In this document: positions 4,012-23,740 of the stretch, in pieces | Layout of the letters: each line of letters begins with the position of its first letter | Numbering within the stretch: position 1 is the first letter of the stretch | Assembly: GCA_022450565.1 (NCBI GenBank) | Contig: JAKUOP010000011.1 | Location: forward strand, 1 to 60,075 | Origin: Candidatus Nitrosopelagicus sp. | Lineage (GTDB): Archaea > Thermoproteota > Nitrososphaeria > Nitrososphaerales > Nitrosopumilaceae | DNA: 60,075 bases | Direction of reading: 5' to 3' | Position numbers and translations under genes: made by a program | Notes under the pieces: generated by a model | Databases searched by the model: none | Told to the model about the DNA's origin: nothing | What the model saw: only the letters and a program-made list of their open reading frames with translations

Positions 4012-5261
4012 AATTTGAACACCTCTGCAACTTGCTCAAGGGAGTCAATTAAAGTGTCAACTTCTTCCTTTGTAGTATAAATATAGAAACTGGCACGATT
4101 AGTAGCGGCAACATTTAGTTTTTCCATCAAAACTTGTGCACAGTGATGACCAGAGCGAATTGCAACACCATTTTTATCAATAATTGTTGCAACGTCGTGT
4201 GGATGAACATCATTAAAGTTGAAAGATATCACACCACTAGCCTTCTGAGGATCTTTTGGACCATATATTGTTAAACCCTTAACTTTTGACATTTTTTCTA
4301 ATGCATATTTGGTCAACTCAGTTTCATGACTTCTAACATTATCCATACCTATTTTTGTAAGATAATCAATTGCCGCTGCAAAACAAATTACATCTGCAAC
4401 ATTAGGTGTACCTGCTTCAAACTTGTATGGAAGATCATTCCAAGTAGTTTCATGCTTGTGAACTTCTCTTATCATATCTCCTCCACCTTGAAATGGTCTC
4501 ATATTTTCTAGTAGTTCCTTACGTGCCCATAAAACACCAACACCGGTTGGGCCTAACATCTTGTGAGCTGAGAAAGCATAGAAATCACATCCAAGACTAG
4601 CAATATCTACTTTCATGTGTGGTACTGCTTGAGCACCATCAACTAGAACTTTTGCTCCAACATTTTTGCATTTCTTTATTACATTATGAATATCAGTTAT
4701 TGTTCCAAGAACATTTGAAACATGGCTAATAGCAACAAGTTTGACCTTACCTGTTGACAAGTATTCGTCTAGTTGCTCTAGAATTAATTCACCATCATCA
4801 TCAATATCGATGTATTTCAGTTCTGCACCTGTTTCCTGTGTAAGTAACTGCCATGGAACTATGTTTGAATGATGCTCATATTCTGTTGTAACCACTATGT
4901 CACCTTTTTGGACATTATCCCTTCCCCATGAATATGCAACTAAATTGATAGCCTCTGTTGTACCTTTAACAAAAACAATCTCTTCACGATTTTGAATGTT
5001 AAGAAACTTGGCAATTTTATCTCTGGTAACCTCAAATGCCTCAGTTGATTCTTCAGCAAGTGCATGAACAGCTCTATGTATGTTGGAATTATGATTCTGA
5101 TAGTAATCAGTAATTGCATCAATTACCTGATTGGGTTTTTGTGTAGTTGCTGCATTATCAAGATAAACCAATTTTTTATCATCACGCACACGTCTGTTAA
5201 GAACTGGAAAATCATTTCTTATTTCTTCTAAGGAGTAGGTATTTGCTTGCATATTAATCAC
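4008..5261 (-). CDS. sufS: Cysteine desulfurase SufS
   Basis: PLP-dependent class V aminotransferase-fold enzyme, 417 aa. It takes sulfur from L-cysteine as a persulfide for Fe-S cluster assembly. The PLP lysine is about residue 234 in FSAHKMLGPTGVG, and the persulfide cysteine about 374 in RSGHHCAQVLM. The short RSGHHC loop is the SufS (group II) type. Stop and start codons overlap with sufD upstream and sufU downstream, so the genes are probably translated as a coupled set. Confidence 0.96.
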   Translation of the reverse strand: MINMQANTYSLEEIRNDFPVLNRRVRDDKKLVYLDNAATTQKPNQVIDAITDYYQNHNSNIHRAVHALAEESTEAFEVTRDKIAKFLNIQNREEIVFVKGTTEAINLVAYSWGRDNVQKGDIVVTTEYEHHSNIVPWQLLTQETGAELKYIDIDDDGELILEQLDEYLSTGKVKLVAISHVSNVLGTITDIHNVIKKCKNVGAKVLVDGAQAVPHMKVDIASLGCDFYAFSAHKMLGPTGVGVLWARKELLENMRPFQGGGDMIREVHKHETTWNDLPYKFEAGTPNVADVICFAAAIDYLTKIGMDNVRSHETELTKYALEKMSKVKGLTIYGPKDPQKASGVISFNFNDVHPHDVATIIDKNGVAIRSGHHCAQVLMEKLNVAATNRASFYIYTTKEEVDTLIDSLEQVAEVFKL

Positions 5262-6655
5262 CTATACTTGTAATGCTGTTCAATTTCTGCATGTTCGTTA
5301 TATCTTGTTTCTTCTACTTCGACTAATGCCTTTAATTGTTCATCATTGTTGATTGATAGTTCTTTACCTTCCCATTTTGATTCTATGAGGTAAGCAATCC
5401 ATGCACGTACCTGATATGACATTGAACGTGATAGTGGTTCCAAGAAGCCTTCAACAATTATTCTTTCAGCTTCTGCTCTACTCAAACAGCGTGAGCCTAG
5501 ATAGAAGATTTGTTCTTCGTCAATTTGTGCAACTGATGCAGAATGAGTTGCTTTAACATCATTTGTTAAAATTTCAAGTCCTGGTATTGCATCAGATTTT
5601 GCACCTTTATCTAATAATATTGAACGACCTGACAAAAATGAGTTAGAATGTGCTGCATTTTCATTTATTCTAATCATTCCCTTGAATAGAGATTTTGACT
5701 TGTCTTTTAGAATTGATTTCTCAACAACTTTTCCTTCCGTTGATTCTTTATTATGATTAACAATTGTGTTAAGATCAAATGATTGCTCTTTATTTCCAAA
5801 AATAACTTCAGAGTCATTTGCCATTGCTCCAGTTCCGTTTAGATGATAATCAATTCTATATCTAGACAGCATTGCGCCAAATAATCCAAGATACCAATTA
5901 ATCTTTGAATCTTGTGCTAATTGTGAATTTCTGGTGGAGAAGTTAATTGAGGATTGATCCATCATTTGAAGTGTAGTCACATCAAGATTGCTATTTGCAC
6001 CGATACTTGTATTCATTAATTCAAGATACGCTTGTTGCTCATTTTTAGGTGAGTATAGTTCTTGGACAATGTTTGCCTTCGCATTATCTTCAACAAATAT
6101 AATATTTCTACTAATAGTAGATATTCCATCTTCAGAAAGGCATGAAAACAGGTGAATTGGTTCATCGATAATCTGATTTTTTGGTATGTAGACAAAAATA
6201 CCTGAATTAAAGGCAGCATTGTTTAAAGCAGTATACTTGTCTTCATTTGAGTTGGATGATTTGATTGCTTTTTCAATTATGTCATGGTTTTGTTTTAGTG
6301 CATCATCGATTGATGCGATGATAACTCCTTTAGACTTTAACTCTTCAGAAAGATTAGCGGATAATATGTTAGAACCAATTTGAATAATTCCATTCTCAGT
6401 TTTTAATTCTTCAACACGTTTTGAAAGAAAATCAGGTATTTTTGAATCAGAGTTAATGGATAATGCAATTTTTTTAGGATTCATACGCTTTGCATCAGTA
6501 TATTTATTGTACAAAGGAGAAACTTCGACTGGTAATTCTTCATAGATGCTAAGTGAACTTTTTCTATATTCTTTTAGCCAATCTGGCTCATTTTTTGATG
6601 AAGAGATTTCATCTATTAGTGAACTTTTAAGTGCTGATAATGCTATTTGTTCCAT
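5258..6655 (-). CDS. sufD: SufD-type Fe-S assembly protein
   Basis: SufB/SufD family protein, 465 aa, with the right-handed beta-helix core typical of the family in its C-terminal half (TNDVKATHSASVAQIDEEQ and LSRAEAERIIVEGFLEP). SufD pairs with SufB in the SufBC2D scaffold. It is called SufD rather than SufB because it is the more divergent of the two paralogues and lies second in the operon. It starts 22 bases after sufB and overlaps sufS by four bases. Confidence 0.9.
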   Translation of the reverse strand: MEQIALSALKSSLIDEISSSKNEPDWLKEYRKSSLSIYEELPVEVSPLYNKYTDAKRMNPKKIALSINSDSKIPDFLSKRVEELKTENGIIQIGSNILSANLSEELKSKGVIIASIDDALKQNHDIIEKAIKSSNSNEDKYTALNNAAFNSGIFVYIPKNQIIDEPIHLFSCLSEDGISTISRNIIFVEDNAKANIVQELYSPKNEQQAYLELMNTSIGANSNLDVTTLQMMDQSSINFSTRNSQLAQDSKINWYLGLFGAMLSRYRIDYHLNGTGAMANDSEVIFGNKEQSFDLNTIVNHNKESTEGKVVEKSILKDKSKSLFKGMIRINENAAHSNSFLSGRSILLDKGAKSDAIPGLEILTNDVKATHSASVAQIDEEQIFYLGSRCLSRAEAERIIVEGFLEPLSRSMSYQVRAWIAYLIESKWEGKELSINNDEQLKALVEVEETRYNEHAEIEQHYKYR

Positions 6656-19633: not shown

Positions 19634-21118
19634 TTAGGATATTTTCATTATTCCATTAGATATTAGCCACTGTATTCCGGTAACAAATGCTTTATCATCA
19701 ATTTGACCATCATACCACCATCCTGCATTATTTTTAATCCATCCAGGTATTGAATTTCCTCCACTACTAGTACCCTGAGCGGTTTCTGGGATTTCCATTA
19801 TTCCTGAATTGATTAGATATTGAATACTTGTGACAAATGCTGCGTCATCAATTTGACCATCATACCACCATCCTGCATTATTTTTTACCCAGTCTGGAAT
19901 CTTAATTTCATTATCACCAAATGTTTGAACTATCTCTGGTTTTTCTCCAGCAATGTTTACGTCAAACATTATGTAGCCTGTATCATCACCACTAGGTATA
20001 ACCATTTCAGGACCCATACCATATACCATTATAACGAATTTTGCTGTTCCTGGATCCTCATCAACAATTGTAGTTCGATAAACTTGTCCTGATGTTGTGA
20101 AAAGCTTTTGTCTACCCTCATCTTGTGCTATGGAACGAATTAAATCACCATTTTCATCAACGACCCAGATGTCATAATGAACTTCATTAACAAATTCAGT
20201 TGGATTTACAGTTCTCATGAAATTTATGAACCATTCCATATCACAGCCAGGAAGAGGACTTGGAGGACCGTATTTGAGATCAATAATAACTGAATAAGAA
20301 TTGGTTGTTTCGTTAATTGATACTTTATCATAATCAGTTGGACATCCAATTGCAGCTTGTTGTGATTCAGTTGATTGAATTTCTGCGAATGGATTTGAGG
20401 TAACATAATAATCATAATCTAATAATTCAAATTCATATTCAACTGGTGGAACACCTGAACTTACATGAACATGTGTCTTAGCTTTAACAGGAAATGGAAA
20501 TTCATCTACAACCCAAACCTGACTTTTTACACCACCTGTCTTCCATTGTATTAAAACTGTATCAAAAGTATCAGCTGGTGTGGTAATAGTTTCAATTGCA
20601 GTTGGAAGTATTTGTTCCCCACCAATGTTAGCAATCTTTCCCCATGATGCTGCAGAAAATTCTTTTGGTCCTTTACCTGTTAAGACATCTCCTGCTGTGT
20701 TAACTATTTCTTTTGTTGCATAAGCTGACAACCAAGCAATTGATGATTTGTAAGCACCACGGTATGGTGAAATATTATCAGAGCCCCCAGTTGGTTCTGG
20801 AGCAACATCACCTACATGCATTTCGCCTATAATGACTTTATTTCCATCCTCTACCATTACTTGAATGATGAATTTTTCCTCAGTTCCAAATGTTCTCTTA
20901 TCACTAACCCACATCGACATGACAAAATCGGTACAATCTTTGTAGTCAGTATGACATATTTCATAACTGAAATAATCTCCAATCTCAAGACTTTCACCTA
21001 CATACCAATCTCCATCAAGATTGACACCACCTGCTGAATATTGTGCATGTGCTTGTTGATACGCAAAAGGAATTATTAGTAAAACTGCAAAAATCACAAT
21101 TAATTTTATTGGACCCAC
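19634..21118 (-). CDS. Secreted protein with two C-terminal NNAGWWYDG domains
   Basis: 494 aa with a clear signal peptide (residues ~4-25, ending AHAQ). A large beta-rich extracellular region of unknown family follows. The C-terminus carries two tandem ~40-residue units, each with a W-[VI]-KNNAGWWYDGQIDD core followed by a FVT.IQ(Y/W)LI..GIM.I helix. This unit is common at the ends of predicted secreted proteins in marine Thaumarchaeota. An extracellular attachment or folding role for the unit is inference. No transmembrane anchor is visible after the repeats. Confidence 0.85.
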   Translation of the reverse strand: MGPIKLIVIFAVLLIIPFAYQQAHAQYSAGGVNLDGDWYVGESLEIGDYFSYEICHTDYKDCTDFVMSMWVSDKRTFGTEEKFIIQVMVEDGNKVIIGEMHVGDVAPEPTGGSDNISPYRGAYKSSIAWLSAYATKEIVNTAGDVLTGKGPKEFSAASWGKIANIGGEQILPTAIETITTPADTFDTVLIQWKTGGVKSQVWVVDEFPFPVKAKTHVHVSSGVPPVEYEFELLDYDYYVTSNPFAEIQSTESQQAAIGCPTDYDKVSINETTNSYSVIIDLKYGPPSPLPGCDMEWFINFMRTVNPTEFVNEVHYDIWVVDENGDLIRSIAQDEGRQKLFTTSGQVYRTTIVDEDPGTAKFVIMVYGMGPEMVIPSGDDTGYIMFDVNIAGEKPEIVQTFGDNEIKIPDWVKNNAGWWYDGQIDDAAFVTSIQYLINSGIMEIPETAQGTSSGGNSIPGWIKNNAGWWYDGQIDDKAFVTGIQWLISNGIMKIS

Positions 21119-21201
21119 AAAATCAAACCTAAATTTAGTAAGATAAATGTTTCATAGAATAATCTAAGTAAATAAAGAAAAAAAGGAAAAATAGAAAGTT
21201 C

Positions 21202-21348
21202 CTATGATAGTGCGCTTACTGCTTCTTTACAGACGTCAGTATTACACTGGCAATCGTGGCTACATATACAGTGGCCCTGCATTGCACAATCACATGAGTA
21301 ATCTGGATCGCCTGAATCTGCTTCACAGCCACATGCTTGATCTGTCAT
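21202..21348 (-). CDS. Metallothionein-like Cys-rich protein, 48 aa
   Basis: ATG at 21348, TAG at 21202. The 48 residues include nine cysteines (6, 8, 19, 21, 27, 29, 33, 35, 40), eight of them in four CxC pairs, plus His26 and His31 and several Asp/Glu. Dense CxC motifs in a tiny acidic protein are the hallmark of metallothioneins, which bind Zn, Cu or Cd in thiolate clusters. A TTTTAAGAG-type TATA element (21371-21379, read on the minus strand) is about 26 bases upstream, fitting a leaderless transcript. It is not similar enough to a named family for me to assign one; metal binding is inference from composition. Confidence 0.72.
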   Translation of the reverse strand: MTDQACGCEADSGDPDYSCDCAMQGHCICSHDCQCNTDVCKEAVSALS

Positions 21349-21406
21349 AGGATGAATAGATCAGACTTGGTTTTAAGAGTTTTCGACATTTTCTAACAGC
21401 GTTATG

Positions 21407-22288
21407 TTACATCCATTCGTCCTTGAGTAGATTGTTTGCAATTTCATTCAGTGTATTGACATAAGATTCGTGTTTAACACTGTCATTTTCTAGATCAAAT
21501 CCAGTTTTCAGAACATGAGTAAATTCTGATATCTCTTTTGGTGAATTTGATATCTTAAAGAAATTATTTCTGTTAACATTTCCCAAATAGAAATAACAGT
21601 CAGATAGAAGTGAGTTCTCAATCAAGTAATCAGCCTTGTTTTTAATAATCACCGAATGATTATTTTTTTCAATCATGTCAGAAAACCCCTGAGTAGATTT
21701 CAGCATTCTAGACAAAAGTGAATGAGTAGATCTTTCAAGACCAATACATTCAGTGATTAAAGATATTGAATCATTCAGTTTACTTAGTTTTAGATTTCTA
21801 ATTGTATCTAACGTATGAACAGGAAAATTTTGTTTTCCATTTAGGGCTAATATTGCATCAATAAGAAAATATGCTGCACATTTAATCCAACAAGATGCAA
21901 CTGGTTCAGATGTAACTAAATCATCTTTGGCTTTGGCTAAACACACTTGTGATTCAATAACACATTTTTTAGAATATGTTGCAAGTATTGATTCCTTTTT
22001 TTCCTTAATTTTTGATAAAAAGATCTTTAATTCCCATTTTGGATCATTTATTATCTGTATATTTTGATATTGGGATAAAACTTCTATTCTAGATTCATTT
22101 AGATTCGCATGATGTAATCTGACAAATTCATTCTCTAATTCAACAATTGAATCATCTAGATCTGTATTATCAAATATTACAACATTATAATCACAGCAAA
22201 CATGATTAATCTTTTCTGCCCTACAACCACCTAATCCAACTGGATGTTCCAGTGAGGGAATTTTGTCTAATATGATTTTATTTTCCAT
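21407..22288 (-). CDS. Hypothetical protein, 293 aa
   Basis: Soluble protein with several cysteines, including GGCRAEKINHVCC near residue 21 and VASCWIKCAAYFLIDA near 128. No recognised domain. The mostly helical middle (ALNGKQNFPVHTLDTIRN, then ECIGLERSTHSLLSR) could suggest a nucleotidyltransferase-substrate-like or HEPN-like helical bundle, but I see no catalytic motif. It sits just upstream of the metallothionein-like gene on the same strand, which has its own promoter. Confidence 0.7.
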   Translation of the reverse strand: MENKIILDKIPSLEHPVGLGGCRAEKINHVCCDYNVVIFDNTDLDDSIVELENEFVRLHHANLNESRIEVLSQYQNIQIINDPKWELKIFLSKIKEKKESILATYSKKCVIESQVCLAKAKDDLVTSEPVASCWIKCAAYFLIDAILALNGKQNFPVHTLDTIRNLKLSKLNDSISLITECIGLERSTHSLLSRMLKSTQGFSDMIEKNNHSVIIKNKADYLIENSLLSDCYFYLGNVNRNNFFKISNSPKEISEFTHVLKTGFDLENDSVKHESYVNTLNEIANNLLKDEWM

Positions 22289-22503: not shown

Positions 22504-23166
22504 ATGGATCTTAGAAGTTTGAAATTAAAAGAGCAATATAGGTCAGATAATGACAATATAATTGCAGACTTTTTTATTCCGTGTTTGAGTAATTGTATTC
22601 AGTTTGATAGAGCGATTGAATATGTTACATTACAAGGTTTGTCAACACTAACACTAGGCTTTCATAATTCAACTCCAAGCGCAAGAATAAGGATGATTAC
22701 AGGTCATCAGTTCACAATCAGTGATTTGAATACACTATCAAAAATTTTTATAAAAAATGGAAATAGCCGTATAAATTTTAATCCTGAATTAATTCGTGAT
22801 GTAAAACTCGAAATTATAAGAAAACTGTTTACATCTGGAAATCTAATGCTTAAAGTTGCTATTCCTAGTTCGGAAGAGGTTGATGGAACATTTGCTGAAA
22901 AAGTTGGAATTTTTCAAGATGCAAACGGTGATGCTGTGGCATTTTCTGGAAGCTCAAATGTTTCATTTGATAGGCAAAATAAGAATTATGAATCAATTGA
23001 CGTGTTTACGTCATGGAATGATAAAACAAGAGTGGATATTAAAAAACAGGATTTTGAAAATCTTTGGTCAAATGAAACAAAATCTGTCTCAGTGTATGAT
23101 TTTGAGTATGCAGAAAAACACAATCTACTCAAGTATTCATCGGAATGGGCTGTAAATTTCAATTAG
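22504..23166 (+). CDS. Lone PLD-like (helicase-associated) domain protein
   Basis: 220 aa. The stretch from TFAEKVGIFQDANGDAVAFS through GSSNVSFDRQNKNYESIDVF to KQDFENLW matches the phospholipase-D-like domain found at the N-terminus of some SNF2/DEAD-type helicases in defence and repair loci. Here the helicase motor is absent: the frame stops soon after the domain. Where relatives have HxK (FHEK), this protein has AEK, so the catalytic His is lost and nuclease activity is doubtful. It begins 33 bases after tRNA-Glu. It could be a DNA-binding remnant of an integrated element or a stand-alone domain. Confidence 0.65.
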   Translation: MDLRSLKLKEQYRSDNDNIIADFFIPCLSNCIQFDRAIEYVTLQGLSTLTLGFHNSTPSARIRMITGHQFTISDLNTLSKIFIKNGNSRINFNPELIRDVKLEIIRKLFTSGNLMLKVAIPSSEEVDGTFAEKVGIFQDANGDAVAFSGSSNVSFDRQNKNYESIDVFTSWNDKTRVDIKKQDFENLWSNETKSVSVYDFEYAEKHNLLKYSSEWAVNFN

Positions 23167-23167
23167 C

Positions 23168-23740
23168 TTAGAATTTAAAATCTTTCATTTTCAATTCTGA
23201 TTTATTCTCTTGAAAACTCATCTTTGAAATTTTATAATAAATTACTTCCCCTCTTCGCTCTATTACCGCAACAATTGGTTCTTTTCCCATTTGTGTAATT
23301 TCATAAATATTTTTTTGTATCTGTCCAATTTTTTCTTGGGTTCCTTCATTTAATGCAAATACAAGGTATTTTGCAGATTTAGTTCCAAAATGGCCTCTTT
23401 CATAGACTCGAAAGTCAGAACCAAAGCCAAATCCGTCTTTTATAACATAACCACGAGTTCTTAGATCTCGAAAGATTAAAAATTTGGTTAGTATGTCTGC
23501 GTTCGATTTAATACAAGTTTGCATTAAGCCATCAAAATCAATTGTTGTTTTTCCTTTGTTAAGTTTCAATTTTTTAGAATACAGAAGATATAATGTTTCA
23601 ATCATATTAAGACCATAAATTCCAGTTGTGGTTTCCCCATATCCTTTTTGTTCTAATTCATTTTGCATTTTTTGGTTTTTAATAATAGTCTGATCTTTTA
23701 CTAGATTGCCTTGTACTTTAGATTCTAAGTCAGATGACAT
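23168..23740 (-). CDS. endA: tRNA-splicing endonuclease EndA
   Basis: 190 aa. Cleaves bulge-helix-bulge introns from pre-tRNAs; a tRNA-Ser with an intron occurs in this window. The C-terminal catalytic domain is recognisable by FLIFRDLRTRGYVIKDGFG and FGSDFRVYERG (Tyr about 113) and KYLVFAL. The usual triad is Tyr-His-Lys with His in an H(S/A)xYLV motif. Here that position is Ser122 (SAKYLV) and the only nearby His is 117, directly after YERG. A candidate Lys is 170 (VIYYK). Quaternary state (homo- or heteromeric) is not clear. Confidence 0.9.
   Translation of the reverse strand: MSSDLESKVQGNLVKDQTIIKNQKMQNELEQKGYGETTTGIYGLNMIETLYLLYSKKLKLNKGKTTIDFDGLMQTCIKSNADILTKFLIFRDLRTRGYVIKDGFGFGSDFRVYERGHFGTKSAKYLVFALNEGTQEKIGQIQKNIYEITQMGKEPIVAVIERRGEVIYYKISKMSFQENKSELKMKDFKF

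Follow-up and report, generated by a model that had tools for sequence, protein, structure and literature searches.

MT-A, a nine-cysteine metallothionein-like protein family of the Nitrosopumilaceae, and a membrane protein that carries its domain as a tail

Does a cysteine-rich open reading frame of only 48 codons, found in a 60,075-nucleotide stretch of Candidatus Nitrosopelagicus sp. DNA (the window), code for a protein, and would this protein hold metal as metallothioneins do? The Nitrosopumilaceae, the family to which the window is assigned as judged by named relatives, rank among the most abundant archaea of the sea and have a copper-heavy metabolism. A search of 5.39 million papers did not find the phrase "archaeal metallothionein". 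Publications in which metallothionein occurs together with Nitrosopumilus or Thaumarchaeota appear, judged by title, abstract and word counts, to mention both only in passing.

The open reading frame, its conservation and its genomic setting

The reading frame occupies positions 21202 to 21348 of the minus strand, with its ATG at 21348 and its TAG ending at 21202. The product, named here MT-A, is MTDQACGCEADSGDPDYSCDCAMQGHCICSHDCQCNTDVCKEAVSALS. The initial annotation of this locus named no strand; the plus strand has stops in the MT-A frame, and it is the minus-strand translation that displays the nine cysteines, all but one in four CxC pairs, and the two histidines that were described. The cysteine spacing is C-1-C-10-C-1-C-5-C-1-C-3-C-1-C-4-C. 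The protein is acidic and has one aromatic residue. No other of the 626 window ORFs of at least 30 amino acids has as many CxC pairs, and dinucleotide-shuffled windows yielded on average 0.025 ORFs shorter than 110 amino acids with at least four such pairs.

A profile search recovered MT-A, or the fused form described below, from every one of the 63 family members sampled; 62 of these genomes have a free copy. Genome G445 is the one high-quality member where the profile found the fused form only. A search with the single sequence detected MT-A in 51 of 101 near genomes; many of those in which it was missed are incomplete. The weak match of this search at G054:C1:359662 was discarded as no short Cys-rich ORF lies there. 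Among 398 genomes of the phylum the profile gave no credible match in other families, the one weak match having an internal stop. In named genomes 229 stretches encode MT-A, and the best 80 of these belong to Nitrosopumilus, Nitrosopelagicus, Nitrosarchaeum, Nitrosotenuis and like records. A viral or plasmid origin was rejected, as the viral contigs and plasmids searched gave no relative. A nine-cysteine gene that is family-wide and not found in the sister families searched makes intracellular copper holding testable with one small protein.

The absence of homologues keeping the cysteine pattern had been named in the initial annotation as one of the observations that would speak against it. 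Homologues were found, and all nine cysteines are invariant across 109 codon-aligned copies; a median dN/dS of about 0.15 shows these copies to be under purifying selection. The importance ascribed to the two histidines did not hold, since neither position is constant: 81 of the 109 copies have His at position 26, and 19 have it at position 31. Many residues other than cysteine are near-invariant, namely D3, Q4, A5, G7, E9, G13, D20, M23, Q24, D32 and E42, and a spacing of 34 to 35 residues is fixed in 153 copies of the domain.

Transcription signals flank the gene on both sides. The TATA element ascribed to it was recovered as TTAAAA at positions 21371 to 21376 of the minus strand, which places it 28 to 23 bases upstream of the start codon. 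Across 65 non-redundant upstream sequences a TATA-like box sits at this position, with near-invariant T/A bases at -29 to -23 relative to the ATG. A T-rich run just after the stop (21170 to 21197, minus strand) is a likely archaeal terminator. Such runs, defined as 10 or more T within 15 bases no more than 50 nt after the stop, follow 97% of 114 copies, against 12.5% of 50-mers drawn at random from the window. These signals suggest a leaderless, one-gene transcript. With promoter and terminator signals of its own, MT-A is not favoured to form an operon with the gene upstream.

This upstream gene (21407 to 22288, minus strand) codes for a protein of 293 amino acids and is found on the same strand in 63 of the 63 loci long enough to tell. 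The protein has no match in Pfam or NCBIfam; its AlphaFold2 model (pLDDT 89.7) has a nucleotidyltransferase-like fold, Foldseek matching nucleotidyltransferases with a best E of 3e-4. The Asp pair of the nucleotidyltransferase motif is not kept in all copies, reading CDYN in the window and CDYD or CEYN elsewhere, so that the protein may be an inactive nucleotidyltransferase. Nothing connecting this gene to metal was found. The downstream neighbour (19634 to 21118, minus strand) codes for 494 amino acids with a signal-like N-terminal segment and two C-terminal W-KNNAGWWYDG repeats, equally without match in Pfam or NCBIfam, and lies downstream on the strand of MT-A in all 65 loci long enough to tell. 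No recognised metal gene adjoins MT-A at its locus. Genes lying upstream beyond the 293-residue gene persist in only about half of the loci, and positions 22504 to 23740 of the window may correspond to a variable region. One of the genes there is weakly PLD-like (Pfam PLDc_2, E 0.0046); an NCBIfam anti-phage PLD model aligns with an E of 2e-6, far under its cut-off.

Two metagenome-assembled genomes titled Nitrososphaeraceae (L129 and L145) carry MT-A. Their 293- and 494-residue neighbours match those of Nitrosopumilaceae, so that the titles are probably wrong, by misnaming or contamination.

The shortness of the frame is what could suggest a chance ORF without product. Set against the conserved cysteine pattern, a dN/dS of 0.15, the positioned promoter and terminator and the conserved gene order, this reading is hardly credible. 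By its relatives, selection, signals and conserved position, the MT-A frame is a genuine gene.

Comparison with metallothioneins and zinc clusters

MT-A is small, Cys-rich and bears CxC motifs (48 residues, nine cysteines, four CxC pairs), the sequence features of the metallothionein class, whose members also bind several d10 metal ions in a thiolate cluster and serve in metal buffering or detoxification, often being induced by metal. No named metallothionein family matches it over its cut-off, and Pfam, NCBIfam and PDB sequences gave no usable match. PDB alignments to UBR1 and UBR2, with E values no better than 0.37, were set aside as noise from cysteine richness.

MT-A is close in pattern to the beta-domain of vertebrate metallothioneins (Pfam PF00131, Metallothio). 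Both have nine cysteines arranged as four CxC pairs plus one, and both have a core spaced CxC-x5-CxC-x3-CxC, which in the vertebrate domain forms its first part. The vertebrate sequence used for this comparison was recognised by a PDB search as metallothionein-2. In MT-A, by contrast, the core is preceded by the first CxC at a distance of 9-10 residues and followed by the last cysteine after 4 residues. MT-A differs further from vertebrate metallothionein in being acidic, in its aromatic residue and in lacking a second (alpha) domain. The PF00131 profile aligns MT-A under its cut-off in several relatives, at profile positions 5-29, which correspond to the beta-domain. At the MT-A locus of relatives its best scores are 11.9-13.8 bits against a curated cut-off of 23 bits, with none in genome G000; two MT-A members are matched, with a best E of 0.019. 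Random placement of four CxC blocks yields successive gaps of five and three in 0.9% of cases, so convergence with the vertebrate core has to be reckoned with. Prokaryotic metallothioneins of the SmtA type (PF02069, Metallothio_Pro) are likewise small and Cys-rich, but their profile has no match at the MT-A locus in 61 genomes and none over its 33-bit cut-off anywhere in them, while a control genome scores over this value. MT-A looks metallothionein-like in its working and stands outside the named metallothionein families tested.

Structure prediction by AlphaFold2 gave no confident metal-free fold (pLDDT 55.7, pTM 0.30). The sole helix of the model is C-terminal, at residues 38-47, and neither Foldseek nor PDB profiles found a match. 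The alignment behind the model is shallow, so that its low confidence, which would fit a protein ordered by metal, is weak evidence for such a protein.

MT-A is probably a cytosolic, metallothionein-like thiolate buffer for Cu(I) and/or Zn(II). We infer expression of MT-A, its cytosolic location, metal binding and buffering, as well as the metal and the geometry of the cluster. In the mechanism that is proposed, MT-A would be a family-wide core gene product made from its own leaderless transcript. Its nine thiolates would wrap a cluster of metal ions, of Zn3Cys9-like type or containing several Cu(I), and in this way MT-A would store Cu(I) and/or Zn(II) and give them up again.

The near-invariant residues other than cysteine exceed the needs of a pure thiolate buffer and argue against this reading. 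They count in favour of the main alternative, a structural or regulatory Zn3Cys9 mini-domain acting in the manner of the eukaryotic CXC or pre-SET zinc clusters, which would bind a partner protein or nucleic acid and whose metal would be a permanent part of the fold rather than a cargo. The fixed 34 to 35-residue spacing and the predicted C-terminal helix also speak for such a domain, as does the reuse of the module on a membrane protein. Against it, eukaryotic CXC/TCR or pre-SET Zn3Cys9 domains of Pfam found no match in 21 members at E values up to 10, no PDB profile or fold match was obtained and the AlphaFold2 confidence is low. The copper genes that accompany the related family of 38 residues also count against a structural zinc cluster. 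This alternative is rather unlikely, and the thiolate buffer is favoured over it.

A second nine-cysteine family and neighbouring copper genes

A rarer nine-cysteine family, of about 38 amino acids (L201-L211, L213-L215), is found in the same archaeal family. Its presence is sporadic (four of 300 genomes of the phylum) and it is absent from the window's genome. It shares with MT-A the nine cysteines, the four CxC pairs and an identical CxC-x5-CxC-x3-CxC core; the lone cysteine precedes the core in the 38-residue family, while it follows the core in MT-A. Alignment of the two profiles by hhalign gave a probability of 93.7 over 33 columns, a score to be read with the reservation that Cys-rich profiles inflate similarity, so that the apparent homology could be convergence. 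The copper-thionein of Neurospora crassa (PDB 1m0j), a chain of 28 residues, could be aligned with the 38-residue family over CxC-KxGTCxCGxxCxC with a non-significant E of 4.9.

Nine genomes with the 38-residue gene were examined with wider flanks. The gene lies between genes for a CopA-type ATPase and a DsbD-like protein in three of them and adjoins a CopC-CopD fusion in two others (L222:1632-1748, L223:6122-6238, L227:6405-6536, L226:6384-6500 and L230:6016-6132 for the five genes); a sixth has a neighbourhood judged by eye to be partly similar. In L222 a second copy, of 57 amino acids, is found near the first (5193-5366, minus strand). In Nitrososphaera viennensis, an ammonia oxidiser of soil, the genes with the strongest upregulation when copper is limiting include CopC/D and dsbD (PMC7785015). 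The copper context is provided solely by the neighbours of the 38-residue relative and concerns this relative rather than MT-A.

As far as sequence can tell, the metallothionein-like reading of the initial annotation is borne out by the invariant cysteines, the CxC pairs, the beta-domain core, the homologues and the copper-linked 38-residue relative, and its Cu/Zn idea is plausible. The tie that it drew to ammonia oxidation is weak and unsupported, MT-A being confined to one family and not found in the other searched families of the order. At least some of these other families are also ammonia oxidisers.

The fused form on a membrane protein

An MT-A-type domain is also found as the C-terminal tail of a protein of ~455 amino acids in about 37 of the 63 genomes. 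This host protein has a signal-like start, an ectodomain, one C-terminal membrane segment, a basic stretch and, in many cases, a linker rich in Pro. By the positive-inside rule its cysteine tail is predicted to be cytoplasmic. In many relatives, the module that is free in MT-A would also be anchored at the cytoplasmic side of the membrane, where it would end a protein with a single membrane pass. If this form were a metal store, its position at the membrane would be an unusual placement for a thiolate store.

Two types of tail were distinguished, EEAACGCAASAE and DQACGCEADSGDP. The latter resembles free MT-A and often retains its start Met. The host protein is more widespread than the cysteine tail and is present in further families of the order. 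The genome (L187) and genus of the window have it without the Cys domain, and the window's copy, like most other tail-less ones, ends in MPKGWKPE. Examples of fused and/or tail-less host proteins are found in L031, L033, L080 and others.

This architecture invites the proposal of a membrane-linked copper or zinc donor or sensor, in which the free protein and the fused tail would pass metal to, or report it to, the membrane protein family bearing the tail. The recurrence of the domain as a tail in about 37 of the 63 genomes is in keeping with the proposal, and so are the signal-like N-terminus, the single C-terminal membrane segment and the cytoplasmic side predicted for the tail. The occurrence of a host protein without tail in the window's own genome and genus counts against it. 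The host protein moreover has no Pfam match and gives no sign of metal handling. Such a donor or sensor is quite improbable, and a thiolate buffer is preferred as the role of MT-A.

The relation between free and fused copies was compared within eight genomes. In two of them the proteins are identical, with DNA identity of 95-98%; in the other six the copies are not near-identical. Over the eight genomes, same-genome pairs (86.5%) are no closer than cross-genome pairs (87.3%). General gene conversion between the free gene and the fused tail within a genome was therefore rejected, and exchange is suggested to be local only. A broader scheme, in which a family-wide archaeal metallothionein exists in free and membrane-tethered forms that exchange their module and act as soluble and inner-membrane thiolate stores, is put forward tentatively, as a possibility that falls well short of the likely. 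In L031 and L033, the fused-form gene is divergent from a gene of 306 amino acids, which we take to be cofD.
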